Assembly: GCF_001456115.1 (NCBI RefSeq)
Contig: NZ_CP013264.1
Location: 310,001-374,000 of the forward strand
Reading direction: 5' to 3'
DNA length: 64,000 bases
Source of the DNA: Sphingobium baderi
GTDB taxonomy: Bacteria; Pseudomonadota; Alphaproteobacteria; Sphingomonadales; Sphingomonadaceae
Shown: piece by piece, positions 23,096-57,248 of the stretch
How the letters are laid out: each line of letters opens with the position of its first letter
Position numbering within the stretch: the stretch's first letter is position 1
Made by a program: the position numbers and the translations under genes
The notes under the pieces: model-generated
Database searches by the model: none
Told to the model about the DNA's origin: nothing
Seen by the model: the letters and a program-made list of their open reading frames with translations, nothing else

Positions 23096-23124
23096 CCGGC
23101 TTCCCGGCGGCCTCGGGAAGCCGG
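23096..23124 (-). repeat. Perfect hairpin after recombinase A
   Basis: CCGGCTTCCCG (23096-23106) and CGGGAAGCCGG (23114-23124) form an 11-bp perfect stem with a 7-nt loop, 8 nt beyond the stop of recombinase A. No T run follows in the direction of transcription, so it is not a standard terminator. Confidence 0.7.
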
Positions 23125-23132
23125 AACCAGTG

Positions 23133-23765
23133 TCAAATTTCCGTCCGTTCGGACAGTGTCAGAGCATCATCCACGTCGACGCCTAGGTAACGGACCGTGT
23201 TCTCAATGTTCGTATGTCCCAGCAGGATCTGGACGGCCCGAAGATTGCCTGTGGCTTTGTAGATCAGTGCTGCCTTGGTCCGTCGCATCGAGTGCGTGCC
23301 ATACTCCCGCTTGTCTAGGCCAATCGTTGAAACCCACTCGTCGACAAGACGAGCATACTGCCGTGTGCTCAAATGGCCGAGATAATCGATCCTGCTTGGG
23401 AATACGAAGTCGCAAATCGTGCCGCCGCGCCGATCGAGCCATGTCTTCAGGCTCTTGCGTGCTTCCGTCATGATCTCGAACTGCACAGGTCGACCGGTCT
23501 TTTGTTGGATGACGGTCGCGCGATCCCGAAATGACCCCGCGCTCATCAGGTCGCCGATCCTGATTTTGACCAGATCGCAGCCTCGCAATTTGCTGTCGAT
23601 GGCGAGATCGAACAGGGCCCGGTCGCGTAGACGTTTGTGTTCGTCGAGATAGAAACGGATCGCCCAGATATCGCGAGGCTTCAGCGGGCGCTTCGGCCCA
23701 ACTTTTTTCCCTGCGTTCCAAGGGCTCCGATCATGAATGGCGGGGTCGAGGTCTGAATGTCCCAT
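23133..23765 (-). CDS. Minimal tyrosine recombinase, copy A
   Basis: A 210-residue tyrosine recombinase with only the catalytic domain; the usual N-terminal SAM-like core-binding domain is absent. All six active-site positions are visible: Arg61 (LRGCDL), Lys89 (QQKTGRP), His158 and Arg161 (THSMRR), His184 (LLGHTN) and nucleophile Tyr193 (VRYLG). The start is set at 23765 because GGAGAA lies 5 nt upstream and because copies B and C start at the equivalent position and have identical length. It diverges from higBA. Confidence 0.85.
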   Translation of the reverse strand: MGHSDLDPAIHDRSPWNAGKKVGPKRPLKPRDIWAIRFYLDEHKRLRDRALFDLAIDSKLRGCDLVKIRIGDLMSAGSFRDRATVIQQKTGRPVQFEIMTEARKSLKTWLDRRGGTICDFVFPSRIDYLGHLSTRQYARLVDEWVSTIGLDKREYGTHSMRRTKAALIYKATGNLRAVQILLGHTNIENTVRYLGVDVDDALTLSERTEI

Positions 23766-23793
23766 GATAGTTCTCCGATGGCCGGTATGGCCA
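23766..23793 (-). promoter_or_regulatory. Conserved 28-nt leader of recombinase A
   Basis: TGGCCA starts exactly 28 nt before the ATG, followed by GGCC and the ribosome site GGAGAA 5 nt before the start. The same layout occurs before copies B and C. The two GGCC blocks can pair into a small hairpin just upstream of the ribosome site. Confidence 0.6.
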
Positions 23794-23843
23794 GCGCGAG
23801 TATAGTATGCACGTCTCGCCCCCCGACGTGTGTCGCGCGACAC

Positions 23844-23872
23844 TTGACAATCCTGCGACGGCGCGCTACATC
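23844..23872 (+). promoter_or_regulatory. Sigma-70-type promoter of higBA
   Basis: TTGACA (23844-23849), a 17-bp spacer and TACATC (23867-23872) lie directly before the higB start at 23879. The -35 is perfect and the -10 is weak. The short leader would leave almost no untranslated region. Confidence 0.5.
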
Positions 23873-23878
23873 CGAACA

Positions 23879-24169
23879 ATGGAAATAGAGAGCATCAGGC
23901 ACAAAGGCCTGCGCCGCTTCTTTGAGACGGGCAACTCCAAAGGCCTGGTTGGAGATGCGGGGCGATTGCGCAAGATGCTCGCTTTCATCGACGCTGCGGA
24001 AAGCTTCGAGGAGCTGTCAGTGCCTCCGAACTTCGGATTGCATGAGCTGACAGGCGATCGGAAAGGGAACTGGTCGATGACGGTTACGAGAAACTGGCGG
24101 ATGACCTTCGGTTTGAATGGTGAAGGCGCGCTAATCGATATGGATCTGGAGGATTATCATGGCGCTTAA
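23879..24169 (+). CDS. higB: HigB-type toxin (RelE fold)
   Basis: A 96-residue ribosome-dependent mRNA interferase of the HigB/RelE family. The pattern (IRHKGLRRFFETGNSKGL near the start, LHELTGDRKGNWSMTVTRNWRM, then LEDYH at the end) is characteristic. The toxin gene precedes the antitoxin, as usual for higBA, and overlaps it by 11 bp. Confidence 0.9.
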   Translation: MEIESIRHKGLRRFFETGNSKGLVGDAGRLRKMLAFIDAAESFEELSVPPNFGLHELTGDRKGNWSMTVTRNWRMTFGLNGEGALIDMDLEDYHGA

Positions 24170-24461
24170 GATGCACCCTTCGCTCGCGGTCCACGTGGGA
24201 GACTGGTTGAAGACCGAAATCGTGGAGCCTGCACAGGTTAGCGTGACGGCTTTGGCCGAGCATTTTGGCGTATCGAGGCAGGCGTTGAGCACCTTGCTGA
24301 ACGGCAATGCGAACCTGTCTGCTGATATGGCTATTCGGTTTGAGAAGGCCTTCGGCATCAAGGCCGACACTCTGTTGCGGATGCAGACGGCCTATGAGCT
24401 GGCCCAGGCCCGCGAGCACGAGCAGGACATAAAGGTCGAGAAGCTCGCAAAAGCTGCCTGA
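24159..24461 (+). CDS. higA: HigA-type antitoxin (XRE HTH)
   Basis: A 100-residue antitoxin and autorepressor. The XRE helix-turn-helix spans about 28-60 (VTALAEHFGVSRQALSTLLNG), followed by the HigA-typical segment on Ile/Phe (ADMAIRFEKAFG). Overlaps higB by 11 bp. Confidence 0.9.
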   Translation: MALKMHPSLAVHVGDWLKTEIVEPAQVSVTALAEHFGVSRQALSTLLNGNANLSADMAIRFEKAFGIKADTLLRMQTAYELAQAREHEQDIKVEKLAKAA

Positions 24462-24666
24462 CACGCCGACAAAGTAGGCGTTCCCACACCACTCCACGCA
24501 GCCTGATAGCTGCCCACTATTCATTTGACCGCATGGTAGTGGGTTGCTCATCTTGGGTTGGCAGGATGGGCAAACGCGGTCAGCCAGGGCAATTGAGTTG
24601 ACAGCCCCCTCGCAGGACGTGCCCGGAGCGCAGAATCGCTCCGGGCATCAGTTCCAATCCCCGACC

Positions 24667-28180: not shown

Positions 28181-28194
28181 GTGCGGCATGAAAC

Positions 28195-28292
28195 GCCAAC
28201 ATTCCAGACATTCGAGTTTTCAGATTGCCGTGATCGATTCCTGTCTTTCGTTCATCACGCATTTGAGAAGGATGAAAGACTTGGTCTGGGAC
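28195..28292 (+). repeat. 98-bp direct repeat, left copy
   Basis: Nearly identical to 38120-38216: one single-base indel and one C/T difference over 98 bp, same orientation. A weaker match continues for about 80 bp further right. The two copies bracket the ~10-kb proteostasis island. The first bases (CGCCAACATT from 28194) also recur at 20733 and 23026. Confidence 0.85.
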
Positions 28293-28416
28293 AGAGCGCC
28301 GTCCCACAGCAATAAGTCGACCGACAGCTGTTGCCAGGAGCCGACATCCAGCAGTTGCCTGACCGGCATCGAAGAATAATAGAAAGGGACTTGTCGCTCT
28401 TAAGCTCTTAAGCTCC

Positions 28417-28441
28417 GGGGAGCCCGAGTATCGGGCTCCCC
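28417..28441 (-). terminator. Probable terminator of groESL
   Basis: GGGGAGCCCGA (28417-28427), a 3-nt loop and TCGGGCTCCCC (28431-28441) form a perfect 11-bp stem, 8 bp after the groEL stop. The T run is weak (CTTAAG repeats follow), so efficiency is uncertain. Confidence 0.65.
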
Positions 28442-28449
28442 GTCTCACG

Positions 28450-30084
<1,635 letters not shown>

Positions 30085-30124
30085 CTATGTCCTTCCTGAA
30101 TGTTCGAGGGATGAGGGCGGTCGA

Positions 30125-30439
30125 TCAGGCCGCCTGCTTGAGCGGCACGACGTTGTCGATCACGCCAAGGATATCGCTCTCCTTCATGATGAGCAGATCC
30201 TCGCCATCGATCTTGACCTCGGTGCCCGACCATTTGCCGAACAGGATCCGATCACCGGCCTTCACTGACAGTTCGACGAGCGTGCCCTTGTCGTCGCGGG
30301 CGCCCGGCCCGACGGCGACAACCTCGCCTTCCTGCGGTTTTTCCTTGGCGGTGTCAGGGATGATGATGCCGCCCGAGGTCTTCTCCTCGGCGTCGATGCG
30401 ACGGACGACCACACGGTCGTGCAAGGGGCGGAAATGCAT
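30125..30439 (-). CDS. groES: Co-chaperonin GroES (10 kDa)
   Basis: A 104-residue co-chaperonin. [25 protein letters not shown] is the GroES N-terminus with its mobile loop, and the end carries the [11 protein letters not shown] segment. First gene of the operon. A heat-shock-type promoter and a CIRCE element lie upstream. Confidence 0.97.
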
Positions 30440-30509
30440 GGCAAAAGCTCCAGATGCAAAACATGATGTGACAGACCCTGCCGTTCATCCGAACGACAGG
30501 TTTCGCTGA

Positions 30510-30537
30510 GCTAGGAAAACCGATTTTTCCGTTCAAG
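30510..30537 (-). promoter_or_regulatory. RpoH-type promoter of groESL
   Basis: Reading leftward, CTTGAA (30532-30537), a 16-bp spacer and CCTAGC (30510-30515) resemble alphaproteobacterial heat-shock sigma promoters. An almost identical arrangement precedes the hsp20 operon. Confidence 0.55.
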
Positions 30538-30554
30538 AGGCGGAATGAAATTTT

Positions 30555-30581
30555 TTGGCACTCTTGGCGTTGGAGTGCCAA
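30555..30581. promoter_or_regulatory. CIRCE element (HrcA operator)
   Basis: TTGGCACTC (30555-30563), a 9-bp spacer and GAGTGCCAA (30573-30581): a perfect 9-9-9 inverted repeat matching the HrcA-binding consensus. It lies between divergent groES and the 30690/usg operon and so may repress both. Confidence 0.9.
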
Positions 30582-30689
30582 TCGGGTCCAACTTGCCTCT
30601 TGACGAGACTCGGAACGGAACCAAAATTCTCCGGTGCGGGTCTGTCCCGCATCAACGAAAGGAGCGACACAAGGAAAGGAGTTTTGGCC

Positions 30690-30926
30690 ATGTCGCAGCC
30701 CTACGCACGTTTTCTTCACCCCTTTGATGTTGCGCGGCATCCGGATTTGGAACCCGAAGTGAAGCGTGCCATCCTCGCATCCTGGGCATCGGATCGATCT
30801 GCCGTGCGAGACAAGCCGGCGCTTCGCAAACCCCCGGGCGCAAAACGCGCCGTACCGATCGATGAAGTGCTCGCCGCCATGCGCTCGCTCGACGAAGGCA
30901 GGGATTCGGGTAGTCGGCTTCAATGA
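30690..30926 (+). CDS. Conserved small protein upstream of usg
   Basis: A 78-residue protein starting at ATG 30690 after AAGGAAAGGAG. It contains a segment reading VKRAILASWASDRSAV, which I associate with a conserved alphaproteobacterial small protein of unknown role. The stop overlaps usg as ATGA. A possible sigma-70-type promoter (TTGACG at 30600, AAAATT at 30623) lies upstream beside CIRCE. Confidence 0.7.
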   Translation: MSQPYARFLHPFDVARHPDLEPEVKRAILASWASDRSAVRDKPALRKPPGAKRAVPIDEVLAAMRSLDEGRDSGSRLQ

Positions 30927-31192
30927 GGGATCGCGCTTTCCTCGCTCAGCTGCAGGGATATGGGCTAACCACCGCCGAAGTGCACTACTACCGGCCGGAC
31001 GCCCCTTCACTACTGCAGCTGTACGTTTGGCAGGAGTATGATCTTGCGCCCGATTTCCCGGTGCTGTTCGACTTCCTCGATCATTGGCGGCGCGAGATCG
31101 AGGCGGCGCTCCACTCGGTGCAAATCGCGCACGACCAGCTCGTTCGTCCGACCGAGTGGCGCGCCGTCGATGGCGTGATCAGGATGCAATGA
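30923..31192 (+). CDS. usg: Usg family protein
   Basis: An 89-residue protein matching the alphaproteobacterial Usg family along its whole length (QLQGYGLTTAEVHYYRPD, QLYVWQEYDLAPDFP, FLDHWRREIEAALHSV). Biochemical function is not established. It is coupled by ATGA overlaps to genes on both sides. Confidence 0.85.
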   Translation: MRDRAFLAQLQGYGLTTAEVHYYRPDAPSLLQLYVWQEYDLAPDFPVLFDFLDHWRREIEAALHSVQIAHDQLVRPTEWRAVDGVIRMQ

Positions 31193-31563
31193 CGAGGGGG
31201 CCGCTGCGAAAGTGGCGCGAACGCGGCGGCCGCCGCGTCCGCATTGCCTTGCCATTCGACGACATCATGGAGTTCGCGCTCGCGCTCCTGTCGGTGCCGC
31301 CCGAGGAACTGGAGGCGCTGGGCTGGAGCTTTGCCGATCGCAAGCGGCTGCTCGATCATTTTCTGCGCTCAGGCAAGGCCGCGCAGCGGATCGCGCCCGA
31401 TCGTCTCGGAGCAATGCCGATCGAGCTCCGCCTGCCGCAGCGCGACGTCGACCGGCTGCAGCACTTCGCGCGCCGCGAGCTTCCCAAGGCGGCGAGCAGC
31501 GCCGGCGTGATCGACCGGGTCCTCGCCGCGCTGGATCGGGCATCCCATCGGCAGCGCGGGTGA
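31189..31563 (+). CDS. Hypothetical protein coupled to usg
   Basis: A 124-residue protein starting at ATG 31189, overlapping the usg stop as ATGA. It has a basic N-terminus (RGPLRKWRERGGRRVR) and several short helices; no membrane segment or motif is recognised. Translational coupling and coding-like composition support it as a real gene. Confidence 0.6.
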   Translation: MTRGPLRKWRERGGRRVRIALPFDDIMEFALALLSVPPEELEALGWSFADRKRLLDHFLRSGKAAQRIAPDRLGAMPIELRLPQRDVDRLQHFARRELPKAASSAGVIDRVLAALDRASHRQRG

Positions 31564-31606
31564 ATCGTGAAAGGCCCGGGAGAAATTGCTTCTCCCGGGC
31601 CATCGC

Positions 31607-32170
31607 TCAAATGGTCTTCGCTGGTGATGCCAGCTTGCCATGATCGGCAACGGCTTGAACCGGCCCGCGTGACGGTGCGCCGCAGTCACCGGAACTACTC
31701 GAAACGACCTTTGGCTGCTGGTCCGCGCCGAGCGACGTTACCTGGATGCTGCGGCTGCAAGTACCGTTTCCGGTGCTGGTAGAGACGAAGCGATAGCTCA
31801 CGGTTCCTGCCGGCAGGGTGCCGAAGGCGGCCCGGTCGGGCGTTGCGCCTCTGGCCGCCGCCGCTTCGAGCATCCGCGCCTGGCGGAACATCGCATCCAT
31901 CTGCCGATCCATGTCGGCGGCGATCCGGTCGAACAGCGCGAACGGCGCGGTTATCGCCGGATCGGCAAATCGCACCGGCGCGAACCTCATCGCCGGCTCA
32001 ACGGTGACCTTGGGCGCCACATCGCCCTGGTACTCGATCCGGGCAAGCGAGCCGTCGGGCAAGTCGATAGTCATGACCCGGTTGTGGTTTGCGGCCGCGA
32101 TAGCCGTCCCCGCGGTGGCGATTGCCGCCGCGCCGGCCAAGACGGCTGTACGAAGCAATTTTCGCATCAT
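31607..32170 (-). CDS. Hypothetical secreted protein
   Basis: A 187-residue protein. The start at 32170 (ATGATG) gives a signal peptide (MMRKLLRTAVLAGAAAIATA, cleavage near AIAA). The mature part has a helical stretch rich in Met/Arg/Ala and a late strand region with one cysteine pair. Family unknown. Last gene of the leftward hsp20 group. Confidence 0.6.
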   Translation of the reverse strand: MMRKLLRTAVLAGAAAIATAGTAIAAANHNRVMTIDLPDGSLARIEYQGDVAPKVTVEPAMRFAPVRFADPAITAPFALFDRIAADMDRQMDAMFRQARMLEAAAARGATPDRAAFGTLPAGTVSYRFVSTSTGNGTCSRSIQVTSLGADQQPKVVSSSSGDCGAPSRGPVQAVADHGKLASPAKTI

Positions 32171-32205
32171 TCGTCCTTTCGTTGCTGGTTTGGTGGGTGA
32201 GAGAT

Positions 32206-32583
32206 CTAACCGGCCACGCTGAACCTTGGATGACAATCACGCTCTGCCGCAGCGATCGGATAGGCACCGCAGCAACGCGCATGCGGACCTGTCGGCGAGC
32301 AGCACAGCACTGGAGCGGGCGCCGCGGGCAGGTAAGCGTGAAGCGGGCGCTGGCGACGCGCCTCTCCATGGACTGAGAAACGCAATCCTTGCCGCTGGCA
32401 ATAGTTCGCCGCCGCCTCCAAGTTGGGAAAGCGCAGCTCGATCGTCTCGAGCGGATCGCCGCCGCCGGTCCATCCGGTTAGTGGATCCGCCACTGGCCGC
32501 CAGCGAGGCGCGAAGCGAACCTTCCACTGTTCGCGCCGGCCTCGTCCGCCTTGATTAGTGGCCGGCAGCACCGGCTCTATCAT
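32206..32583 (-). CDS. NDUFS4-like (complex I subunit region) protein
   Basis: A 125-residue protein. The segment WKVRFAPRWRP...TGWTGGGDPLET followed by LRFPNLEAAANYCQRQGL matches the conserved region of the complex I accessory subunit NDUFS4. The C-terminal 35 residues are Cys/Pro-rich and unlike that family. Start 32583 has GAGG upstream; an earlier Met near 32694 is possible. No nuo genes are nearby, so its role in a stress island is unclear. Confidence 0.65.
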   Translation of the reverse strand: MIEPVLPATNQGGRGRREQWKVRFAPRWRPVADPLTGWTGGGDPLETIELRFPNLEAAANYCQRQGLRFSVHGEARRQRPLHAYLPAAPAPVLCCSPTGPHARCCGAYPIAAAERDCHPRFSVAG

Positions 32584-32677
32584 GGCACAGGCCTCGCGTG
32601 GCAGCGCGCTGGACGGGTCAGGCCCGGTGTGATTGTCGTTGGCGAATGGCCCGGAACCGAGGTTCCGGGCCAGACCG

Positions 32678-33199
32678 TCACGCCGCCTTGCCATTGACCG
32701 GGATGCGGCGGACATTTTCGTTCGCCGCCTCCGTCTTGGGCAGGGTGACCGTCAACACGCCGTTCCTGAACGTCGCGTTCGCCTGGTCACGGTCGACCCC
32801 CTTGGGCAGTCCGATACGCCGTTCAAAGCGGCCGTAGCTGCGCTCGCTATAGCCACGATCCTTGTCTTCGACCTCGGACCGCTTCTCGCCGCGAAGCGTT
32901 AGCGCACCGTCTTCGACGGTAATCTCCACGTCCTTCTCGTCGAGACCCGGCAGTTCCGCCGTGACGCGGATCTCCTTGTCGGTCTCGCCGAGCTCCACAT
33001 GGGGCCAACCGGCAGCGCGGTCGAGGCCGGCGAAGGCGGGCACGCCGAAGCCGCGGAAGACGTCGTCGAACAGTCGGTTCACCTCGCGATGGAGCGAGAG
33101 CAGCGGGTGGGTATCATTGTCGCGGCCGCGCTCGGCACTGACCGGGACAGGGAGCCGGTTTTCCTGCCGGCTCCAGGGAATGAGATCACGAAAAGCCAT
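32678..33199 (-). CDS. Small heat-shock protein, Hsp20 family (second gene)
   Basis: A 173-residue holdase of the alpha-crystallin family that keeps unfolded proteins soluble. The alpha-crystallin domain spans about 65-160, with a typical ENVRRIPV end motif. The start at 33199 (MAFRDLIPW) is preferred over the ATG at 33208, which touches the AAGGAG site. Downstream of and co-directional with a second hsp20. Confidence 0.92.
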   Translation of the reverse strand: MAFRDLIPWSRQENRLPVPVSAERGRDNDTHPLLSLHREVNRLFDDVFRGFGVPAFAGLDRAAGWPHVELGETDKEIRVTAELPGLDEKDVEITVEDGALTLRGEKRSEVEDKDRGYSERSYGRFERRIGLPKGVDRDQANATFRNGVLTVTLPKTEAANENVRRIPVNGKAA

Positions 33200-33283
33200 G
33201 ATGGTCATCTCCTTTTCTGGCTGGAAGGGTAAAGGCCTGCCGGCCCGCAGAGTGCGGCGCCGGCAAACCAGTTAAACCAAGGA

Positions 33284-33757
33284 TCAAGCCGCTTCGCGGA
33301 CCTTGTCCTTGGGCGCCTCGATCTGATCCTGGGCAGCATTGCTGCCGCCGATCTCGATCCGGCGCGGCTTCATCGCCTCGGGGACGACACGCTTGAGCGC
33401 GATGCTCAGCAGGCCGTTCTCAAAGCTGGCATTGCCGGCTTCCACGAAGTCAGCGAGCTGGAAGCGCCGCTCGAAGGCGCGCGCGGCGATACCGCGATGC
33501 AGATAGTCGCCCTTGCCGTTATCCTCGGCGCGTTTGCCGGTGACGGTGAGCTGGTTCTGCTGCGCCACCACCTCGATGTCTTCGGGGCGAAAGCCGGCGA
33601 CTGCCAGCGTGATGCGATAGCTGTCCTCGCCATCCTTCAGGATGTCGAAGGGCGGATAGCCATCGTCTTCACGCGCGCCTGCTTCGAGCAGGTTGAACAG
33701 GCGATCGAAGCCTACGGTCGAGCGCCGATAGGGCGCGAAATCAAAGTTAGTTCTCAT
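33284..33757 (-). CDS. Small heat-shock protein, Hsp20/IbpA-like (first gene)
   Basis: A 157-residue small heat-shock protein closer to IbpA: MRTNFDFAPYRRSTVGFDRLF, then YPPFDILKDGEDSYRITLAVAGF. ATG 33757 follows AGGAGG by 8 nt. First gene of the leftward group behind a heat-shock-type promoter. Confidence 0.93.
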   Translation of the reverse strand: MRTNFDFAPYRRSTVGFDRLFNLLEAGAREDDGYPPFDILKDGEDSYRITLAVAGFRPEDIEVVAQQNQLTVTGKRAEDNGKGDYLHRGIAARAFERRFQLADFVEAGNASFENGLLSIALKRVVPEAMKPRRIEIGGSNAAQDQIEAPKDKVREAA

Positions 33758-34099
33758 TTCCAAATCCTCCTATGAAGCGATCTGGGCATGAGAGGCGCCG
33801 GTAAACGGAGAGCCGACGCTCTCTATGTCCAACCGGACCCGAACGGCGTCCGGCAACAAAAATCTAGGTAGGCATCGAGGGCTTTCAAGAGGTTTTTGCG
33901 CACACACTTTTTGCCCGCGCGTGCTCTTGAATTTACAGAAGCGGTTACAAGATCTTGCCTGCGGACCGGGCCCCTCTGGCGGCGGCTGCAAAGCCTCCGC
34001 GATGTCGGACCGCATCGAGTGCGCTCGGTGCAGGATCGCGCAGCTTCAACGTGAAGCCGGCCGAGTGCCTCATTGACTTGAAGATCAATGGAGTGAGGC
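33758..34099. other. Divergent intergenic region, hsp20 / Bax-inhibitor
   Basis: 342 bp with no gene. It holds the leftward promoter at 33863-33889, a possible rightward CTTGAA box at 33926-33931, and a 6-bp inverted repeat CATTGA/TCAATG (34071-34090) just before the ribosome site GGAG of the Bax-inhibitor gene. Confidence 0.6.
33863..33889 (-). promoter_or_regulatory. RpoH-type promoter of the hsp20 operon
   Basis: Reading leftward, CTTGAA (33884-33889), 15 bp and CCTAGA (33863-33868). The same CCTCTTGAA...CCTAG pattern occurs before groES, supporting shared heat-shock control. Confidence 0.55.
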
Positions 34100-46602: not shown

Positions 46603-46613
46603 TCTGAGCCTCC

Positions 46614-46629
46614 ATTAGACATGTCTAAT
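46614..46629. promoter_or_regulatory. Perfect 16-bp palindrome, candidate BigR operator
   Basis: ATTAGACATGTCTAAT is self-complementary throughout and lies 12 bp upstream of the bigR start, overlapping the ribosome site and the -10 region. An imperfect second copy (TTAG...CTAA) follows to the right. Confidence 0.7.
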
Positions 46630-46654
46630 TTAGAGTGGACTAATGAAGGTTCAA
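46627..46654 (-). promoter_or_regulatory. Sigma-70-type promoter of the bigR operon
   Basis: Reading leftward, TTGAAC (46649-46654), a 16-bp spacer and TAAATT (46627-46632). The palindrome overlaps the -10, a repressor-like placement. Confidence 0.5.
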
Positions 46655-46827
46655 GAGCGGAAGTTAGTTTCTTCGTTGGGGCAACGTCAGGCCGGGATCA
46701 CCCGGCGAGCCTCGCTCCGCACGGGGACCGCCAATCGGCGGTTCTCGAAAGCCTGACCGGCAACAAGCGTCAGGACAACCTTAGCCTCATGTCTTGTACC
46801 CGTCACAGCCGCTGTTTGGTCTACTGC

Positions 46828-47724
46828 TCATTCCACTTGCCGGCCTTCCAGCAGCGGCGCGTCCGCCGCCAAGGCTTCGGCTAGAAAATCGAGAAGCGCG
46901 CGGATACGGGCGGTGTGGCGCAAGTCCTCATGGGTCAGAAGCCAAAGATCGAGACTGAAGGCGTCGGGCAGTTGTGCGACGCGCACTAGATCGGGCTCCA
47001 GGTCGGCAATGCCGCAGGGCAGGGGCGCGAGCCCGATGCCGGCTTTCGCCGCAGCAACAGCGGCGGCGACCGAGTTCACGCGAAAGACCGGGCGAACCTT
47101 CGGCAGGAAGCGCGCAAAGCGGCTGGCGAGCGCCGCGTGATCGGACTCGAATCCGATCCAGTCTCGTTCCGCCAATGGCATATCCTTGTCTCGATCCCTT
47201 ATGCCGATGGCCCCGTAGGAGGCGAAGACGAGCCGTCCGACGCGGCGCCCCACCAAGGTTTCCGGTGGCTGGTTGCCTACGCGAAGCGCGACGTCGGCTT
47301 CGTGCCGGCTGAGGTTCACCGCAGCGTTGGATACGGCAACTTCGAGCTCTATGCCTGGATAGGCGACGCGAAAGGCCGCGAGGTGGCGCGGCAGCAGCCA
47401 GACCGCCAGCATGTCGATCGTGGCGATCCGGACCGTGCCGCTCAGCCGCAAATCCTGGCCCACCACCTTCCGGCCCAGCGCGGCAATCTCCGCCTCGACG
47501 CGCAGAGCGGACTCGCGCATCTCCTCCCCGGCTGCCGTCAGGACATAGCCGCCGGGAAGGCGGTCGAAGAGCCGCACCTCGAGCGCCCGCTCGAAGGCGC
47601 CGATCCGCCGGAAAACGGTGGAGTGATTGACGCCGAGCGCTCGCGCCGCCCCGGAGAGTGAGCCGGCGCGAGCGACCGCGAGAAATACCCGCAGGTCGTC
47701 CCAGTTGTCAGCGTTTGCATTCAT
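46828..47724 (-). CDS. LysR-family transcriptional regulator
   Basis: A 298-residue regulator. The N-terminal wHTH (WDDLRVFLAVARAGSLSGAARALGVNHSTVFRRI) and an effector domain (about 95-290) are present. The start at 47724 places MNANADNWDDL before the HTH. It diverges from the DUF6448 gene with 120 bp between, so it probably regulates that gene. The effector is unknown. Confidence 0.9.
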   Translation of the reverse strand: MNANADNWDDLRVFLAVARAGSLSGAARALGVNHSTVFRRIGAFERALEVRLFDRLPGGYVLTAAGEEMRESALRVEAEIAALGRKVVGQDLRLSGTVRIATIDMLAVWLLPRHLAAFRVAYPGIELEVAVSNAAVNLSRHEADVALRVGNQPPETLVGRRVGRLVFASYGAIGIRDRDKDMPLAERDWIGFESDHAALASRFARFLPKVRPVFRVNSVAAAVAAAKAGIGLAPLPCGIADLEPDLVRVAQLPDAFSLDLWLLTHEDLRHTARIRALLDFLAEALAADAPLLEGRQVE

Positions 47725-47844
47725 GCAAAGACAACTTGCAATTTTCGCCACTACCTTTGCAGGGTAGCACACCACATCTTTTCAGACGAGGCAAGGCTCG
47801 TGGGAGCCCGCCAGGAAGAACGAGAAGATCGGAAAGGGTTCGAA

Positions 47845-48453
47845 ATGCAGATCCGCCGTCACCTGCTTGCCGTCGCCGCCTCTCTGGGCGCATTGGCGGT
47901 CGTCATACCCACCCCCGCTTTGGCCCACTGCGACAGCATGGATGGCCCGGTGGTGCATGACGCGCAAAGGGCTCTCAGCGAGGCAAACCTGACCCCGGTT
48001 CTCAAGTGGGTCACGCAAGAAGACGAGGATGAGATCCGCAGCGCGTTCCAGATGACGCTGGCGGTGCGTGGGGAAAGCGACGCCGCGATGCAGGTGGCCG
48101 ATCGCTACTTTTACGAAACTGTGATCCGGGTCCACCGCGCCAGTGAGGGAGAGGGCTTCACCGGGCTAAAACCTGCGGGCAGCGTTGACCCGGCGATTGC
48201 CGCCGCTGACAGGGCGCTGCAGACCGGCCAAGTTGGACCGCTCGCCGATGAGCTGGCATCCGCGGTTCGCCATGGGGTCGAGGAGCGCTTTGCGGACGCC
48301 TACCAGAAACGACAAGTAGCAGAAGAGTCGGTCGCGCAGGGGCGCGAGTACGTGGAGGCCTACGTGCAGTTCACGCACTTCGCCGAAGGCGTGCAGCATC
48401 TGACCGAGGCCGGCGCCAGCCACCAGCACCGGGAGACTTCGGCCGACCATTAA
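47845..48453 (+). CDS. DUF6448-like exported protein
   Basis: A 202-residue protein with a signal peptide (cleavage near ALAHC). The mature protein opens HCDSMDGPVV and contains LTPVLKWVTQEDEDEIRSAF and TLAVRG, a pattern I associate with the DUF6448 family. Helical, with a His-rich end. ATG 47845 follows GGAAAGGG. Divergent from the LysR gene. Role unknown. Confidence 0.7.
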   Translation: MQIRRHLLAVAASLGALAVVIPTPALAHCDSMDGPVVHDAQRALSEANLTPVLKWVTQEDEDEIRSAFQMTLAVRGESDAAMQVADRYFYETVIRVHRASEGEGFTGLKPAGSVDPAIAAADRALQTGQVGPLADELASAVRHGVEERFADAYQKRQVAEESVAQGREYVEAYVQFTHFAEGVQHLTEAGASHQHRETSADH

Positions 48454-48562
48454 GTACTGCATCGTTCTTCCGGCAGCGAAGGTCTGATCCACGAAGCTCA
48501 TGGAGATAGTGGCGGCATCGGGTCGTGACGGTCGAACCACTGCGCTTCCGTTGCCGCCAGCA

Positions 48563-48591
48563 GCGGCCATCGGGCAGTGCCCGATGGCCGC
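48563..48591 (-). repeat. Perfect hairpin after recombinase B
   Basis: GCGGCCATCGGGCA (48563-48576), a single G, and TGCCCGATGGCCGC (48578-48591): a 14-bp perfect inverted repeat, 8 nt beyond the stop of recombinase B. No T run follows in the transcribed direction. Confidence 0.75.
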
Positions 48592-48599
48592 ATCGATAG

Positions 48600-49232
48600 T
48601 CAGATTTCGGTGCGCTCGGCGAGGAGGAGCGCGTCCTCCACATCGACGCCCAGATAGCGAACGGTGTTCTCGATCTTGGTGTGACCGAGCAAGATCTGCA
48701 CCGCGCGTAGGTTTCCGGTGGCCCTGTAGATCATGGCAGCCTTGGTGCGGCGCATCGAATGCGTGCCATAGTCTTCTCGGCGCAGTCCGACGGCTGTGAC
48801 CAATTCGTCCAGCAGCCTGGCATATTGGCGCGTGCTCATGGGGCGACGGTGATCAAGACGACTGGGAAAGACATACCCATCGGCTGGTCCACCACGGCGC
48901 AGGAGCCATGTGGCAAGGCTGGCGCGAGCGTCAGCGGTAATCTCGAACTGCACCGGTCGTCCTGTTTTCTGCTGGATGACGAGCGCGCGGTTCCGAATAT
49001 CGGACCCCGCCACAAGATCACCGATCTTGAGCTTCACGAGGTCGCAGCCGCGCAGCTTGCTGTCGATGGCAAGGTCGAACAGCGCGCGATCACGGAGCCG
49101 CTCCTCTCGATCGAGGAAGAACCGGATCGCCCAGATCTGCTTCTGGGTGAGCGGTCGCTTCGTTCCCACCGTCTTTCCAGCATTCCAGGCCACGCGGTGG
49201 TGCATCGCCGGGTCTAAGTGCGAGTAGGTCAT
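48600..49232 (-). CDS. Minimal tyrosine recombinase, copy B
   Basis: A 210-residue catalytic-domain-only recombinase closely related to copies A and C. Arg61, Lys89, His158, Arg161, His184 and Tyr193 are all conserved at the same positions. ATG 49232 is chosen over ATG 49238 because it restores the common 28-nt leader and a proper distance from GGAGAA. It lies at the edge of the arsenic module. Confidence 0.85.
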   Translation of the reverse strand: MTYSHLDPAMHHRVAWNAGKTVGTKRPLTQKQIWAIRFFLDREERLRDRALFDLAIDSKLRGCDLVKLKIGDLVAGSDIRNRALVIQQKTGRPVQFEITADARASLATWLLRRGGPADGYVFPSRLDHRRPMSTRQYARLLDELVTAVGLRREDYGTHSMRRTKAAMIYRATGNLRAVQILLGHTKIENTVRYLGVDVEDALLLAERTEI

Positions 49233-49260
49233 CGTCATTCTCCGTGGCCGTGATTGGCCA
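49233..49260 (-). promoter_or_regulatory. Conserved 28-nt leader of recombinase B
   Basis: TGGCCA exactly 28 nt before the ATG, then GGCC, then GGAGAA 5 nt before the start: the same layout as copies A and C although the bases between the blocks differ. Confidence 0.6.
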
Positions 49261-49476
49261 TGGAGAAGAACGGGTCCGACCGGCCTGCCTCGACACAAAG
49301 CGGCCATTGCTGCGTGCCGTCTCGATGACCGCTTTCGGGAGAGGCCGGCGGCTGGCCTAATGACCGAGATGAGGGCGCCTTGCTGACCGGCAGCTTGTGA
49401 AGGGACCGGTATTACGGCTCCTGGGCCGTCTGCTGACGGCCCGCTTTAGTTGGCTCGAGGGCTCAAGCGGACATGG

Positions 49477-50217
49477 TCAGTCCTTCGCCAGCCCCGCCCG
49501 CTCGACGTGAGTATCGACTGGCTCGCCCCGATCCTTGCGCTCGGAATAGCGATCGACGAACTGCCGGGCATGTGGCCGCAGCAGCACGGTGAAGCGGACC
49601 AGTTCCTCCATCACGTCGACGATGCGATCGTAATAGCCGGAGGGCCGCATTCGCCCTTCCTCATCGAACTCCTCGTATGCCTTGGCGATGCTCGACTGGT
49701 TGGGGATCGTCACCATGCGCATCCAGCGCCCGAGGATGCGGAGCGTGTTGATCGTGTTGAAGGACTGGGATCCGGCACACACCTGCATGACCGCCAGTGT
49801 TCTGCCCTGGGTCGGCCGAAGCCCCTTGTAGGCGAGCGGAAGGTGATCGATCTGGGCCTTCATTATGCCCGAAATCTGGCCGTGGCGTTCGGGGCTGCAC
49901 CAGACCTGTCCCTCGGACCACAGCGAGTGCTCGCGCAGCTCGTGCACGGCGGGGTGATCGTCGTTGGCGACCTGGTCGGGCAGCGGCAGGTCCGACGGAT
50001 CGAAAATGCGCGTCTCGCAGCCGAACAGCTGCAGCAGCCGCGCCGCCTCTTCGACGGCGAGCCGCGAATAGGAGCGCTCGCGGAGCGATCCGTAGAGCAA
50101 TAGGATGCGCGGGGCCGGGTCGAGCCTGCCGAGGCCGGATGCCGGGCTATGGCGGACGTACTCGCGCCTCAGCGCGGGCACGTGATCGGGGTCCGGGAGA
50201 ACGCGTATACGGGACAT
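49477..50217 (-). CDS. arsH: ArsH, NADPH-dependent FMN organoarsenical oxidase
   Basis: A 246-residue flavoprotein. The phosphate-binding loop [12 protein letters not shown] and the segment [23 protein letters not shown] are ArsH hallmarks. ArsH oxidises trivalent methylated or aromatic arsenicals. Last gene of the leftward arsenic operon, 13 bp after acr3. Confidence 0.94.
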
Positions 50218-50230
50218 GGTCGTCTGCTGT

Positions 50231-51301
<1,071 letters not shown>

Positions 51302-51321
51302 GCCGGTTCCCTGAAGTCCGC

Positions 51322-52116
51322 TCACCGCAGGCGCCGGCCGTCGGCATCGACGACCTGCTCGCCATCCTCCTTGGCGAATGCACCCGCCTGGCGCGCGGGC
51401 AGGAGGTCGAGCACCGCTTCCGAAGGCCGGCACAGCTTCACGCCGAGCGGCGACACGACCAGAGGGCGGTTGATGAGGATCGGATGCTCCATCATCGCGT
51501 CGAGGAGCTGCGCGTCGGTGAGCCCCGTGTCGTCGAGGCCGAGTTCGGCGTAGGGCGTTCCTTTTTCGCGGAGCAGATCGCGCGGGGTCAGGCCGGCCCG
51601 CTTGATCAGGCCTTCGAGCATAGCGCGCGACGGCGGCGTCTTGAGGTACTCGATCACGTGCGGCTCGATGCCCGCGTTGCGGATCATCGCCAGCGCGTTG
51701 CGCGAGGTCCCGCATTCGGGGTTGTGGTAGATGACGACCTCGCCGCCCATCGGGCGAGTTCCGCTCTCTGGCTCGCCCCATTCGAGTTCGCCTGTTAGGT
51801 CGACGCACATCTCGGGGGCGCCGCCGCAGCAGTCCTGCAGCAGGAACGTGAGCAGGCGCTTCATACCGGCGTAGTCCGCGCGGTAGCGGATCAGGCGGCT
51901 TTCGCGTTCGGAGGTCACCAGGCCGGCGCGCTCGAGCGTCGAGAGGTGATGCGACATCGTCGAGGGCGGTACGCCAGCGCCGCTGGCGATGTCACCGGCC
52001 ACCAGGCCGTCAGGCCCGGCTTTGACGAGCATGCGGAACACCGAAAGACGCGTCTCGTGGGCGAGCGCGCCAAGCGCATCCACCGCCCAGACCTGTCGTG
52101 CGAGCTCATCCATCAT
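51322..52116 (-). CDS. ArsR-ArsC fusion: arsenic repressor joined to arsenate reductase
   Basis: A 264-residue fusion. Residues 1-110 are an ArsR repressor with a wHTH ([19 protein letters not shown]) and a Cys96-Cys97...Cys104 cluster ([10 protein letters not shown]) able to bind As(III). Residues 125-245 are a glutaredoxin-coupled ArsC arsenate reductase with catalytic Cys135 ([10 protein letters not shown]) and Arg217 and Arg230. No frameshift is needed; the reading is continuous. ATGATG at 52116 follows AAAGG. First gene of the leftward ars operon. Confidence 0.9.
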
Positions 52117-52171
52117 CAACCTTTCGATAGCCGTCAAAATAGTTGCAGCTGGTGGGTCGATCAACCGATAA

Positions 52172-52187
52172 TTCGAGAAGCGTCGAA
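52172..52187. promoter_or_regulatory. Inverted repeat in the ars divergent region
   Basis: TTCGA (52172-52176) and TCGAA (52183-52187) separated by 6 bp, between arsR-arsC and the divergent arsO. A possible ArsR operator, weak on sequence alone. Confidence 0.3.
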
Positions 52188-52257
52188 ATTTGTTCGCCTG
52201 GCAGGACCGTGCCGGCTACGTTGCACGGGGATGGCCTGATCAACCAGGCACGAGGGC

Positions 52258-53304
52258 ATGATGACCGAGCATGACATCATCATCATCGGCGGAGGGCAGA
52301 TGGGCCTTGCGCTCGGCTATTATCTGCGGCGCGCCGGCGCCGACTTCCTGATCCTCGACGGCGAGGACGGACCCGGCGGTGCCTGGCGGCATGGCTGGGA
52401 TTCGCTGCGCCTGTTTTCTCCGGCTGGCTACAGCTCGCTACCGGGCTGGCTCATGCCGCCGACCGAACACGGAGGTTTCCCGACGCGCGACGACGTGATC
52501 GCCTACCTCACCCGGTACGAGCAGCGCTACGAGTTTCGGATCGAGCGGCCGGTCAGAGTGCTGGAGGTGAGCCGGACCGATAACGCCCTCATCATGAGAA
52601 CGGATCGCGGCGGCTATCTCGCCAGGCAAGTGGTGAGCGCCACGGGGACCTGGTCCGAACCCTACAGTCCGAAAATCCCAGGACGTGACCTGTTCGAAGG
52701 TGCACAACTACACTCAGCCCATTATCGCTCGCCAGACGACTTCGCGGGCAAGACAGTCCTCGTCGTTGGCGGGGGCAACAGCGGCGCGCAAATCCTGGCC
52801 GAGCTGTCCCAGGTCGCGGATGCCACCTGGGTAACTCTCAGGGACCCGCTCTTCCTCCCCGACGATGTCGACGGACGCGTGTTGTTCGAACGAGCTACGG
52901 CTCGCTTGAAAGCAGGGCCTAGCGCAGAGCCGGTGGGCGGGATCGGGGATATCGTGATGGTGCCGCCGGTCAGGGACGCCCGCAATCGCGGGGTCCTCGG
53001 CTCGGTTCGCCCCTTCACCCGCATGACCCGAGATGGAGTCGTATGGGAGGATGGTCGGGAGAGCAAAGTCGACGCCATCATCTGGTGCACCGGCTTTGGC
53101 CCTGCGTTGGACCATTTGCGCTCCCTGGGCATCGTCGGCAAGGAAGGCCGCGTCGAGGTGGACGGCCAGCAAGCCGTCGCGGAGCCTCGCCTCTGGCTCG
53201 CGGGCTATGGGGATTGGTGTGGTCCGGGCTCGGCGACGATCATGGGCGCGGCGCGAACCGCTCGCGACCTAGCCGATCAACTCGTTTCTTCCCTCAAGAC
53301 ATAG
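52258..53304 (+). CDS. arsO: ArsO-like flavin monooxygenase
   Basis: A 348-residue FAD/NADPH oxidoreductase. The FAD site is [17 protein letters not shown] at the N-terminus and the NADP site [17 protein letters not shown] is near residue 165. The segment [19 protein letters not shown] is typical of ArsO-type proteins found in ars operons. Divergent from arsR-arsC. The exact substrate is not established. Confidence 0.85.
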
Positions 53305-53668
53305 GCCTCCGCAACGTCCGCTTTGCAGTGTTCAATGGATATCCCCGAATGACCGTCTTGAGGGCGCATTGCTGCCAGGCGGCTTCGCGGTAGGCGAATG
53401 GCTGGTTCTGGTGAAAGCTGCTGGTCAAAGCCCGATCGGCGAACGACGCATTCTGGTCGACTGCCGCCGGAAGCAAGCGCCGGATCGTGGGACAAACCTG
53501 CCAATCGCGAGACGGCGGCGAACGGCGGGTTCCGCACCCATTGCGGACATTGTCAGCATCAATAGCTGCTTGACGCGGTATGGCTTGGCCGGGATGATGG
53601 GCAAATGATGCGCCGCATGAAGCCTGCGGGATGCTGTTCGAAACAACTTCGATTGGGGGCGCGCAACG
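53305..53668. other. 364-bp intergenic region with repeat-like sequence
   Basis: No credible gene. Segments such as CATTGCGGACATTGTC and AACGTCCGCTTTGCAG resemble the degenerate intergenic repeats seen elsewhere in the window. Confidence 0.5.
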
Positions 53669-54010
53669 ATGGCCTTGAAGCACGTAACGTCAGGCGAGGT
53701 GGCGCATCTTGCCGGTATCGATGATCCGGCGGCGCGGACGCGTGCGCTTGCCCGGACAAGCTCGTTCGAGGCGATCCATCTTGTCGTGCGGGCGGGAGAG
53801 TCTCTTCCGGCCCACAAGGTCGATGGGTCCATAATCCTCCATTGCCTGGAGGGGCATGTCGCTTTCGAAGCGGGCAAATCCCCAGATATGCGTGCCGGCG
53901 ACTGGGTGTATCTGGAGCCGGGAACGCCCCATGCCGTGCGCGGTATTGCCGACAGCGCGCTTCTGCTAACCATCCTGTTCGATGCGCCGGCTTTCCGTAC
54001 CGACACCTGA
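53669..54010 (+). CDS. Cupin-domain protein
   Basis: A 113-residue single-domain cupin. The beta-barrel motifs are GESLPAHKVDG and DWVYLEPGTPHAV; only some of the usual metal His/Glu ligands are present. It lies 56 bp before the nitric oxide reductase gene in the same direction, so it may act as a sensor or assist its control. Function inferred from context only. Confidence 0.8.
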   Translation: MALKHVTSGEVAHLAGIDDPAARTRALARTSSFEAIHLVVRAGESLPAHKVDGSIILHCLEGHVAFEAGKSPDMRAGDWVYLEPGTPHAVRGIADSALLLTILFDAPAFRTDT

Positions 54011-54066
54011 ACTGTCATCTATTTTGTTATGATTGGCTGAGTCGCTCGGTCAGCAAGGGGAGTTTC

Positions 54067-56310
54067 GTGGGGGAATATCGCAAGCTGTGGTGGACGCTGA
54101 TCGCGGTCCTCGTCGTCACGTTCAGCATATTGGGGTTCTACGGCACCGAATTCTATAAAAAGCCGCCCCCGATTCCCGCACAGGTCGTATCGGCCAGCGG
54201 CACCGTGCTGATGACCCGCGATGATATTCTCGATGGGCAGACGGCGTGGCAAAGCACTGGCGGCATGCAGGTCGGGTCGATCTGGGGGCATGGCGCCTAC
54301 CAAGCGCCCGACTGGTCGGCGGACTGGCTGCACCGCGAACTCACCACCTGGCTCGATCTCACCGCGCAGGAAACCGCCGGCATGCGGTTCGATGCCCTCC
54401 AGCCCGGAGAACAGGCCAAGCTGCGATATTGGCTGGAGCAGGAATATCGCCAGAACACGTATGATCCCGGCACCGGCACGCTGACCGTTTCCGACCGCCG
54501 GGCGCGTGCCATGGCGCAAGTCGCGGACTATTATCAGCGGCTCTATGGCAACGATCCGGCTCTGCGGGAGCGGCGCGACAATTACGCCATGAAAGAGAAC
54601 ACGCTGCCCAGCGGGGAGCGACGGGAAGACCTGACCCACTTCTTCTTCTGGACCGCCTGGGCCACCGCCACCGAACGGCCGGGGACGGATGCGACCTATA
54701 CCAACAACTGGCCGCCCGAACCGCTGATCAGCAATCACCCCACCGCCGAAAACATCATGTGGTCGCTGGCCTGCGTCATGATCCTGATCGCCGGGGTGGG
54801 CGCGCTGATCTGGGGCTGGGCGTTCCTGCGAAGGCATGAGCCTGAACCCGAAGCGCCCGCGAGCGATCCGATGCTCGCCGTCGGGGTGACAGCATCGCAA
54901 AAGGCGGTCGGCAAATATCTGTTCGTCGTGATGGCGCTGTTCGTGGCGCAGGTGTTCCTCGGCGGTCTGACCGCCCATTACACGATCGAGGGGCAAGGCT
55001 TTTATGGCCTCGACCTGTCATGGCTGCCCTATTCGCTCAGCCGCACCTGGCACGTCCAGAGCGCGATCTTCTGGATCGCCACCGCGTTTCTGGCGGCGGG
55101 GCTGTTCCTCGCGCCGCTCATCAACGGCGGCAAGGACCCCAAATATCAGGCGCTGGGCGTTCATATCCTGTTCGTGGCGCTGCTGATAGTGGTGGTCGGC
55201 TCCTATGCCGGCACGTTCTTCGCCATCGCGCAGGTGATGCCGCCGGAGCTGAACTTCTGGTTTGGCCATCAGGGCTATGAATATCTCGATCTTGGCCGGT
55301 TTTGGCAGGTTGCGCTGTTCATCGGCCTCTTGTTCTGGCTCGGCCTGATGCTGCGCGCGATGATCCCCGCGCTGCGTGGCGGCGGAGACAAGAATCTGAT
55401 CGCCCTGCTGTGCGTATCGGTCGTCGCCATCGGCCTGTTCTACGGCTCGGGCCTGTTCTACGGAGAGCGCACCCACATCACGATCATGGAATATTGGCGC
55501 TGGTGGGTGGTGCATCTGTGGGTCGAGGGCATCTTCGAGGTGTTCGCCACCACCGCCCTCGCCTTCATCTTCGCCTCCATGGGACTGGTGTCGCGGCGCA
55601 TCGCCACGGCCGCCGCATTGACGTCGGCGTCGCTGTTCATGGTCGGCGGGGTACCGGGCACGTTCCATCACCTCTATTTCTCGGGTACCACGACGCCGGT
55701 CATGGCGGTCGGCGCGGCGTTCAGCGCGCTGGAAGTCGTACCGCTCATCGTACTCGGCTACGAGGCCTGGGAACATTGGAGCTACAAGGACCGCGCGCCG
55801 TGGATGCAGCGGGTGAAATGGCCGCTGATGTGCTTTGTCGCGGTCGCCTTCTGGAACATGCTGGGCGCGGGCGTTTTCGGCTTCATGATCAATACGCCGG
55901 TGGCGCTATTCTACCTGCAAGGCCTCAACACCACGGCGGTTCATGCCCATGCCGCTCTGTTTGGCGTCTATGGCTTCCTGTCACTGGGCTTCGTGCTGTT
56001 GATCCTGCGCTATCTGCGTCCTGACATGATGTTCAACGAAGGGCTGATGAAAACCGGCTTCTGGAGCCTCAACGCGGGTTTGGTGCTGATGATCTTCACC
56101 AGTCTGCTGCCGGTCGGACTGTTCCAGTTCCAAGCGAGCACCAGCGTCGGCATGTGGTATGCGCGCAGCGACGAATTTCTCCAGCAGCCCTTCCTCGAAA
56201 CCCTGCGCTGGGTCCGCACCTTCGGCGATGTCGTGTTTATCGTGGGCGCCGTGGCGGTCGCATGGCAGGTCGTAATCCTCGGCCGGTGGCGCAGGGAGGC
56301 GCAGGCGTAA
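54067..56310 (+). CDS. norZ: Quinol-dependent nitric oxide reductase (qNor)
   Basis: A 747-residue membrane enzyme that reduces NO to N2O with electrons from quinol. The N-terminal ~220 residues hold the qNor-specific helix and soluble domain (WGHGAYQAPDWSADWLHREL), and the rest is the 12-helix NorB core with conserved His (SRTWHVQSAIFW, HLWVEGIFEVF, GTFHHLYFSG). GTG 54067 is the best start: AGGGGAG lies 5 nt upstream. It stands alone, without norC or an evident regulator, suggesting NO detoxification rather than full denitrification. Confidence 0.94.
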   Translation: MGEYRKLWWTLIAVLVVTFSILGFYGTEFYKKPPPIPAQVVSASGTVLMTRDDILDGQTAWQSTGGMQVGSIWGHGAYQAPDWSADWLHRELTTWLDLTAQETAGMRFDALQPGEQAKLRYWLEQEYRQNTYDPGTGTLTVSDRRARAMAQVADYYQRLYGNDPALRERRDNYAMKENTLPSGERREDLTHFFFWTAWATATERPGTDATYTNNWPPEPLISNHPTAENIMWSLACVMILIAGVGALIWGWAFLRRHEPEPEAPASDPMLAVGVTASQKAVGKYLFVVMALFVAQVFLGGLTAHYTIEGQGFYGLDLSWLPYSLSRTWHVQSAIFWIATAFLAAGLFLAPLINGGKDPKYQALGVHILFVALLIVVVGSYAGTFFAIAQVMPPELNFWFGHQGYEYLDLGRFWQVALFIGLLFWLGLMLRAMIPALRGGGDKNLIALLCVSVVAIGLFYGSGLFYGERTHITIMEYWRWWVVHLWVEGIFEVFATTALAFIFASMGLVSRRIATAAALTSASLFMVGGVPGTFHHLYFSGTTTPVMAVGAAFSALEVVPLIVLGYEAWEHWSYKDRAPWMQRVKWPLMCFVAVAFWNMLGAGVFGFMINTPVALFYLQGLNTTAVHAHAALFGVYGFLSLGFVLLILRYLRPDMMFNEGLMKTGFWSLNAGLVLMIFTSLLPVGLFQFQASTSVGMWYARSDEFLQQPFLETLRWVRTFGDVVFIVGAVAVAWQVVILGRWRREAQA

Positions 56311-56543
56311 CAGCCGGTGGACCGACAGCTCGCCGCCATCCTTGCATGACGGCTTTCCGGATCAACAAATTGCGCGCGGAACGGCGTACATTGAGCGCGC
56401 TGCCACCCGTCCGTTCAATATCTGGCGGATGGCCGTTTCCAGCAGGAGCTGCTGTTCACCCACCTATCGGCGAACGGCTTGAACTGGTCGGCACGAACCC
56501 CAAAGTCACTCCTTCGAATCTTCTTCTGCAAGCGTTCTGCAGA

Positions 56544-56571
56544 TGGCCAATGTGGCCGTAGGAGAACGATC
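56544..56571 (+). promoter_or_regulatory. Conserved 28-nt leader of recombinase C
   Basis: TGGCCA at 56544-56549, then GGCC and GGAGAA, with the ATG at 56572. Spacing identical to copies A and B. Confidence 0.6.
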
Positions 56572-57204
56572 ATGGAGATGCCTGAAACAGAACTCACCGC
56601 CACCAAGCGCCCGGTTTGGAATGCCGGAAGGACTGTGGGTGCAAAGCGGGCTCTGAAACCGAAGCAAATTTGGGAAATCCGTTTCTACCTCAATCAGCGC
56701 CGCCGCCTGCGAGATCGAGCGCTGTTCGATCTGGCGATCGACAGCAAGCTTCGGGGCTGCGACCTTGTGCAGATGAAGATCGGCGACATTGTCAGCGGAG
56801 GGCAGATCCGAACGCGGGCAATCGTAATGCAGCAGAAAACAGGCCGGCCCGTTCAGTTCGAACTGCTGCCAGATGCTCGGGCGAGCTTGCTGGCATGGCT
56901 CGAACGCCGGGGCGGCACGGTGGACGATTATGTGTTCCCGAGCCGGGTTGATCATAACGGGCACCTGAGCACACGGCAGTACGCTCGGCTTGTCGACGAA
57001 TGGGTGACAGGGGTCGGGCTGATGCCAAGCGAGTATGGCACCCACTCGCTTCGGCGAACGAAGGCATCGATCATCTACAGGGCGACGGGCAATCTGCGGG
57101 CTGTCCAAATCCTGCTCGGCCATAGCAAGATAGAAAATACGGTGCGCTATCTCGGGATCGACGTGGAGGATGCGCTTGCGCTTGCCGAAAACACCGAGAT
57201 CTGA
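56572..57204 (+). CDS. Minimal tyrosine recombinase, copy C
   Basis: A 210-residue catalytic-domain-only tyrosine recombinase. Active-site residues are Arg61 (LRGCDL), Lys89 (QQKTGRP), His158, Arg161 (THSLRR), His184 and Tyr193. It differs from A and B mainly in the first 12 residues and surface positions. ATG 56572 is preceded by GGAGAA. It lies between the NO reductase and the copper module, convergent with cueR. Confidence 0.85.
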   Translation: MEMPETELTATKRPVWNAGRTVGAKRALKPKQIWEIRFYLNQRRRLRDRALFDLAIDSKLRGCDLVQMKIGDIVSGGQIRTRAIVMQQKTGRPVQFELLPDARASLLAWLERRGGTVDDYVFPSRVDHNGHLSTRQYARLVDEWVTGVGLMPSEYGTHSLRRTKASIIYRATGNLRAVQILLGHSKIENTVRYLGIDVEDALALAENTEI

Positions 57205-57211
57205 ACCCACT

Positions 57212-57248
57212 GACGCCCGTTTTCGGTAGAGAGCCGGATACGGGCGTC
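57212..57248 (+). repeat. Perfect hairpin after recombinase C
   Basis: GACGCCCGT (57212-57220) and ACGGGCGTC (57240-57248) form a 9-bp stem; CGG/CCG inside the loop can add an inner stem separated by bulges. Begins 7 nt after the stop of recombinase C. No T run follows. Confidence 0.7.

Follow-up and report, generated by a model that had tools for sequence, protein, structure and literature searches.

The 210-residue tyrosine recombinase C of Sphingobium baderi is probably part of a site-specific, integron-like module-exchange system that acts through composite ends and their short cores. Its gene lies in a 64-kb stretch of the genome (hereafter the window) that holds two further copies, A and B. 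This recombinase is widespread in sphingomonads, sits at the seams between swappable gene blocks and, as far as we can tell, is undescribed. An initial annotation of the window had proposed that an undescribed site-specific system assembled the island. The sites, the blocks and, in loci outside the window, the breakpoints at cores largely bear this out, with the 210-residue protein as the probable catalyst.

The three genes each comprise 210 codons and all three products end in TEI, as first annotated. They share six residues at the same positions (R61, K89, H158, R161, H184, Y193), which we take to be the R-K-H-R-H-Y active-site motif of tyrosine recombinases and which are invariant across 14 aligned sequences. 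Each protein has one match to PF00589 (C 79, B 81.4 and A 71.9 bits versus a curated cut-off of 27.1), placing it among the tyrosine recombinases, and no second Pfam domain. The best-matching stretches span residues 28–194 in C, 28–197 in B and 43–196 in A, leaving too few residues ahead of them for an N-terminal core-binding domain, whose absence had been correctly predicted. This domain defines the two-domain (simple) tyrosine recombinases in the available text of PMC8138268, and A, B and C fall outside that group. A structure model of the recombinase was poor (mean pLDDT 54.8) and adds nothing on the N-terminal domain.

Are the three copies equivalent? They are the only close copies in their own genome (identity to C is 100, 72 and 74%, with 29% for the match that follows), and their divergence is old, as had been suspected: 144 (A/C), 149 (B/C) and 151 (A/B) of the 210 residues are identical (~70%), with 2, 2 and 8 identities, respectively, in the first 15 residues. 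The further idea that they are built as identical cassettes was refuted: DNA similarity among them is limited to the gene itself, and with the end profile both flanking ends were found at C only, one weak end at B and none at A. Likewise, each copy had been placed at the edge of a module. This holds for C, which sits exactly between two composite ends; B, by our reading, is internal to a block, and A falls beyond the array. Fixed chromosomal positions, named in the initial annotation as counterevidence, came into view for A alone, since two relatives (L209 and L207) share the A unit of ~1.4 kb in the 2.2–2.3-kb loci compared. Near copy A, window positions 19258–20709 encode a protein with a T6SS phospholipase Tle1-like domain.

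The features of the window are collected in Table 1. R1, the a-end profile, has 38 rows that include the a sites left of C and at 53285..53469, and the site at 38205..38348 is one of the rows of R2, the b-end profile; E values for these sites are to be read accordingly.

Table 1. Recombinase copies, end sites and blocks in the window.
Feature	Position	Strand	Details
A unit: gene plus about 0.7 kb upstream	23026..24469	-	common to two relatives, 91% and 85%
Copy A	23133..23765	-	210-aa tyrosine recombinase
Block M1	28194..38126	.	second copy in own genome, C1:879587-889520, 99.96%, 1 mismatch, 3 gaps
99-bp terminal stretch running into TGGGAC	28194..28292	+	second copy 38118-38216, 98% identical
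b end, core TGGGAC ending 28292	28281..28392	-	nhmmer E 2.7e-9; R2 E 2.7e-5
a end, core TGGTCG 38072-38077	37978..38082	+	nhmmer E 1.3e-8; R1 E 3.0e-7
Second 99-bp terminal stretch, junction of M1 and next block	38118..38216	+	
b end, core TGGGAC ending 38216	38205..38348	-	nhmmer E 1.7e-19; R2 E 2.9e-14
Block M2, 15 kb, contains copy B	38216..53454	.	inferred from b and a end sites
Copy B	48600..49232	-	210-aa tyrosine recombinase
Weak, decayed end-like stretch upstream of B	49312..49401	+	nhmmer E 1.4e-3
a end of gene-free mini spacer, core TGGTCG at 53454	53285..53469	+	nhmmer E 7.1e-22; R1 E 4.7e-12
b end of same 53.3-53.7 kb mini spacer, core TGGGAC ending 53493	53480..53654	-	nhmmer E 3.9e-6; R2 E 1.4e-5
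Block M3, NorB-type reductase	53493..56485	.	inferred from b and a end sites; reductase by Pfam
a end left of C, core TGGTCG 56485-56490	56312..56500	+	nhmmer E 2.4e-19; R1 own genome E 3.8e-13
Copy C	56572..57204	+	210-aa catalytic-domain-only tyrosine recombinase
b end right of C, core TGGGAC 57249-57254	57239..57293	-	nhmmer E 1.1e-4; R2 own genome E 2.6e-4

The ends were characterized in C-type loci, the best 79 of 488 confirmed stretches (one of the 79 is B-like). Sphingomonads are named in 77 of the 79 locus titles; relatives of C at 60–80% identity also occur on rhizobial and Acetobacter plasmids. In the best DNA alignments, C matched these loci over at most 143 bp upstream and at most 69 bp downstream of the gene, though the neighbours differ. 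Many alignments around C-type genes stop near −87 and +50, others earlier, and the cores sit there: TGGTCG at the upstream (a) end, within T(T/G)GGTCG, and TGGGAC at the downstream (b) end, the two being inverted relative to each other. Read towards its core, each end consists of a 31-bp two-armed motif (X), a spacer of about 14 bp, a GAACGNC arm and, 6 bp further on, the core; outward of the cores, the sequence is variable and keeps a fixed pattern. The X motif is an inverted pair of 13-bp arms with the consensus GAAYGGCNGCTTTTGGCAGAAGCNGACGTTC. The motif has a codon-like look, and we rejected a coding repeat because stops occur in all six frames.

A profile of the 31-bp motif, trained solely on 28 downstream ends, matched in the predicted upstream position at 50 of the 79 genes; among the 29 genes without one, 11 have longer payloads. 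In the loci as a whole, training sites and both strands included, the profile gave 338 matches above 13 bits versus 26 in one shuffle. A core was present on one side only at 151 of 199 motif sites, on both sides at 4 and on neither at 44. When a and b ends facing each other were paired, the gene lay inside a gap of 717–749 bp in 41 of 63 pairs, a count that is circular for presence because the profiles were trained on these loci; L001, among the 41, is a copy of the window, and L058 and L059 are near-duplicates. Of the remaining pairs, 14 also span a gene: two are a–a pairs (781 bp), and in the other 12 the gap measures 1.3 to 3.5 kb. A further 8 are gene-free. In most of the sphingomonad loci that were examined, composite ends lie on both sides of the gene; they are also present without it. 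Apart from weak matches (8–16 bits), no a or b ends were detected at A, at B, at the second gene of L061 or in 20 relatives of other subfamilies. One long payload, on a Novosphingobium plasmid, comprises a ParDE pair together with the recombinase. On a Novosphingobium plasmid, too, a BrnT/BrnA pair stands immediately ahead of a b end (L091:8683-9442), and in L040 (6680-7775) the TGGGAC core downstream of the recombinase is succeeded by a transposase gene (338 aa) that was placed in the IS110 family by eye.

Searches of the S. baderi genome gave 5 matches to the a end (E <= 1e-3) and 6 to the b end (E <= 2.6e-4). Of these, the window contains the three strongest for a and 4 for b. A genome-wide REP-like repeat was rejected on account of these few, clustered matches. 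Along the window, the sites run in the order b (28.3 kb), a–b (38.0–38.3 kb), a–b (53.3–53.7 kb) and a–C–b (56.3–57.3 kb), so that two gene-free pairs and the C unit split the island into M1, M2, M3 and a copper side. The a end near C resembles a remnant of NnrS (named by eye in G025), a resemblance that we judged to be probably due to chance because L017 bears the same kind of end.

Block M1 encodes GroEL, two Hsp20 proteins, Bax1-I, a DUF308 protein, a trypsin-like protease and an HWE kinase, a gene set that presumably resembles the stress-tolerance loci of other bacteria. Since M1 occurs twice at 99.96% identity over 9.9 kb, its move must be recent. It is the freshest movement seen in this genome. 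Both of its ends carry an 8-bp direct repeat, CGCCAACA, which places the borders beyond the cores, by 54 bp on the a side and by about 95 bp on the b side. The CGCCAACA borders are not explained by core exchange; they reflect either a second recombination point or another mover enzyme.

Two pairs of loci, L011/L088 (97%) and L067/L073 (90%), stay collinear over 6.7 kb before they split at TGGGAC or at most 11 bp from it. A 4.6-kb block, whose ends lie within 15 bp of cores, follows the gene in L016 and precedes it in L031. Seven loci share a common left side that is 97.4–99.9% identical over 5.9 to 16.4 kb; in all six comparisons with the reference, L163, they split 0, 0, 1, 7, 11 and 31 bp to the right of one TGGTCG. 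Beyond this point there are six different right sides, L011 and L088 sharing a recombinase payload. A diverged stretch of 80 bp, found after other a ends as well, is common to two of the six and, by eye, to a third. Two of the seven loci, L165 and L166, depart from the common left side where no end is known, at −13.0 and −8.2 kb.

A 16.4-kb block was found in two genomes at 98.5% identity and in different surroundings, bordered exactly by the b core CTGGGAC on the left and the a core TTGGTCG on the right. Ten of 13 picked ORFs in this block were scanned; their products include oxidoreductases and a UvrA-like protein. None of these ten is a recombinase, and a search of the block with the C protein at 1e-5 gave no relative either. 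In the L042 group, payload and b end are shared, and the border lies about 80 bp beyond the core. Just beyond the b end, L042, L051 and L069 have similar sequence around the near-palindrome TCCCGAAAACGATCGAATTTTGGGA, with a second border ~80 bp from the core. By joined flanks, no clean empty site was found; three relatives hold 1.6, 4.6 and 6.1 kb of other DNA without such ends in the ssb–polymerase interval (genes named by eye). What sequence comparison shows is the anatomy of the ends, their fixed positions around the gene, the breakpoints at cores and, in two contexts, the exact borders of one 16.4-kb block. Among the genes next to a sites in L139, L149, L037, L147 and L040 are those for an Mrr-type nuclease, a TIR effector, an Imm11 protein, an ECF-like sigma factor and a protein with a MauJ domain.

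Do enzyme and sites stay together? The gene was detected at E <= 1e-60 in 47 of 94 genomes of the genus, and a ends, searched with stricter filters, in 48 of 49 genomes of the genus and in 0 of 31 genomes from the rest of the order. Of the 47 genomes that lack a match at E <= 1e-60, 17 were picked for a search at 1e-12: 10 showed no trace of the gene and 7 had only partial matches, and several gene-lacking genomes are rich in a sites (15 in G005, 17 in G014). Thus, enzyme and sites need not stay together. Nine recombinases that are 74–77% identical to C apparently have other cores beside similar arms: read by eye, GGGTCG is exact upstream of 6 of the 9 and GCGCC downstream of 6 of the 9. In 36 pairwise alignments of this subfamily, 13 stop 57–63 bp upstream and 8 stop 59–62 bp downstream, the rest elsewhere. 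The core seems, by eye, to change with the recombinase subfamily.

How does this arrangement compare with known systems? As in integrons, a tyrosine recombinase gene lies beside genes with sites of variable sequence that would share a short crossover core, and about half of the inspected sites (7 of 13 a sites, drawn from seven loci) follow an ORF on the same strand at a distance of no more than 100 bp, whereas the other 6 do not. The enzyme-free site arrays resemble CALINs, a term taken from the available text of PMC8618304, which describes a similar split between arrays and enzyme in integrons. Unlike integrons, the system has a recombinase without a core-binding domain and multi-gene blocks of up to 16.4 kb. 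The integron integrase model scored 21.7 bits for A and 18.7 for C versus a cut-off of 265, B not being listed. Single-strand folding of 12 sites against shuffles gave z values from +0.49 to −2.52, at about −2 or below in 3; the other 9 fold no better than chance. No compensatory changes were seen in the end motif, and no Rfam match was found in window positions 37900-57400 at E 0.1. Folded sites of the integron type were rejected on these three results. Lacking an IntI-type integrase and folded sites, the system is not an integron.

FimB/FimE recombinases consist mainly of the catalytic domain and are of similar size (their profile lengths are 198 and 200), but A scored 20.7 and 19.1 bits and C 19.7 versus cut-offs of 221–222 (B not listed), and here blocks swap neighbours. 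The best curated-model matches were to XerA, XerC and XerD, in the catalytic domain only; scores remained far below the cut-offs (XerA, about 59 versus 220 bits), the proteins fall outside the XerC and XerD criteria and, unlike Xer, the enzyme here lacks a core-binding domain and has three copies in one island. The Sphingobium integrative mobilizable plasmid pPDL2 shares site-specific integration and the bacterial group, whereas the integrase tested there is a protein of 328 residues that acts at a tRNA-Ser site (both from the available text of PMC3516476).

What is the mechanism of exchange? Gene blocks would be bounded by sites, with TGGGAC (b end) on the left and TGGTCG (a end) on the right, and recombination at a core would join the end of a block to a new neighbour, keeping the few shared bases (TGG to TTGGTCG). 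The recombinase gene would occupy a slot between two blocks, and its product most likely cuts and joins the cores. We propose the 210-residue protein as the catalyst mainly because the gene has a fixed position and because cores appear to be linked to subfamilies. Circles may serve as intermediates, and the extra arms may offer binding sites to a protein that lacks the core-binding domain, in effect replacing it.

Alternatively, the a–gene–b unit could be a stand-alone one-gene tyrosine-recombinase transposon with gene-free derivatives, the blocks being ordinary DNA between insertions. The gene-free pairs do look like miniature derivatives, and L014 has a recombinase fragment directly beside a unit and its b end. 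In addition, NorB-type and copper genes, the neighbours of C, lie 240 bp apart in G025 with no composite end between them, so that C could simply have inserted there. We nevertheless consider this transposon unlikely, as gene and ends are not passed on together (units that are nearly identical bear different ends, and the reverse) and as the 16.4-kb and 4.6-kb blocks travel with ends at their borders and the gene outside. It is also improbable that another recombinase works the sites and the 210-residue gene is merely carried along: sites persist in gene-free genomes, longer integrases lie near some sites and M1 uses a different, 8-bp border, but the gene stands at a fixed distance from both cores in dozens of loci and the core sequence apparently tracks the recombinase subfamily (by eye).

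Two further mechanisms are less likely still. The inverted orientation of the two cores and the weak matches of A and C to DNA-invertase models would suit a FimB-like switch in which the enzyme mainly inverts the segment between facing a and b cores; this is very unlikely, since block order and neighbours change, beyond orientation. Homologous recombination between ends acting as repeats, for which the recurrence of ends of a few families among the loci would speak, is more improbable still: different ends share a loose consensus only, and breakpoints fall at the six-base core with unrelated sequence on one side. We thus favour core exchange by the 210-residue enzyme. Possibly it represents a previously unnamed class of module exchange that combines a single-domain enzyme, long, unfolded, multi-armed double-strand sites and cores at which a few shared bases suffice.

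The family is large, with at least 8000 relatives at E <= 1e-10, and literature searches in open papers, of partial coverage and hence weak evidence of absence, yielded no description of the 210-residue family. If core exchange is confirmed, it would account for the arrival of genes for stress, metals, catabolism and defence in sphingomonad islands and plasmids as ready-made blocks. It would also provide an example of a tyrosine recombinase working without the usual DNA-binding domain, and a potential tool for joining DNA at short cores. An unnamed class of this kind could link nearly any blocks that carry such ends. Alphaproteobacteria would then possess an integron-like device for moving multi-gene blocks, with cores matched to each enzyme subfamily.
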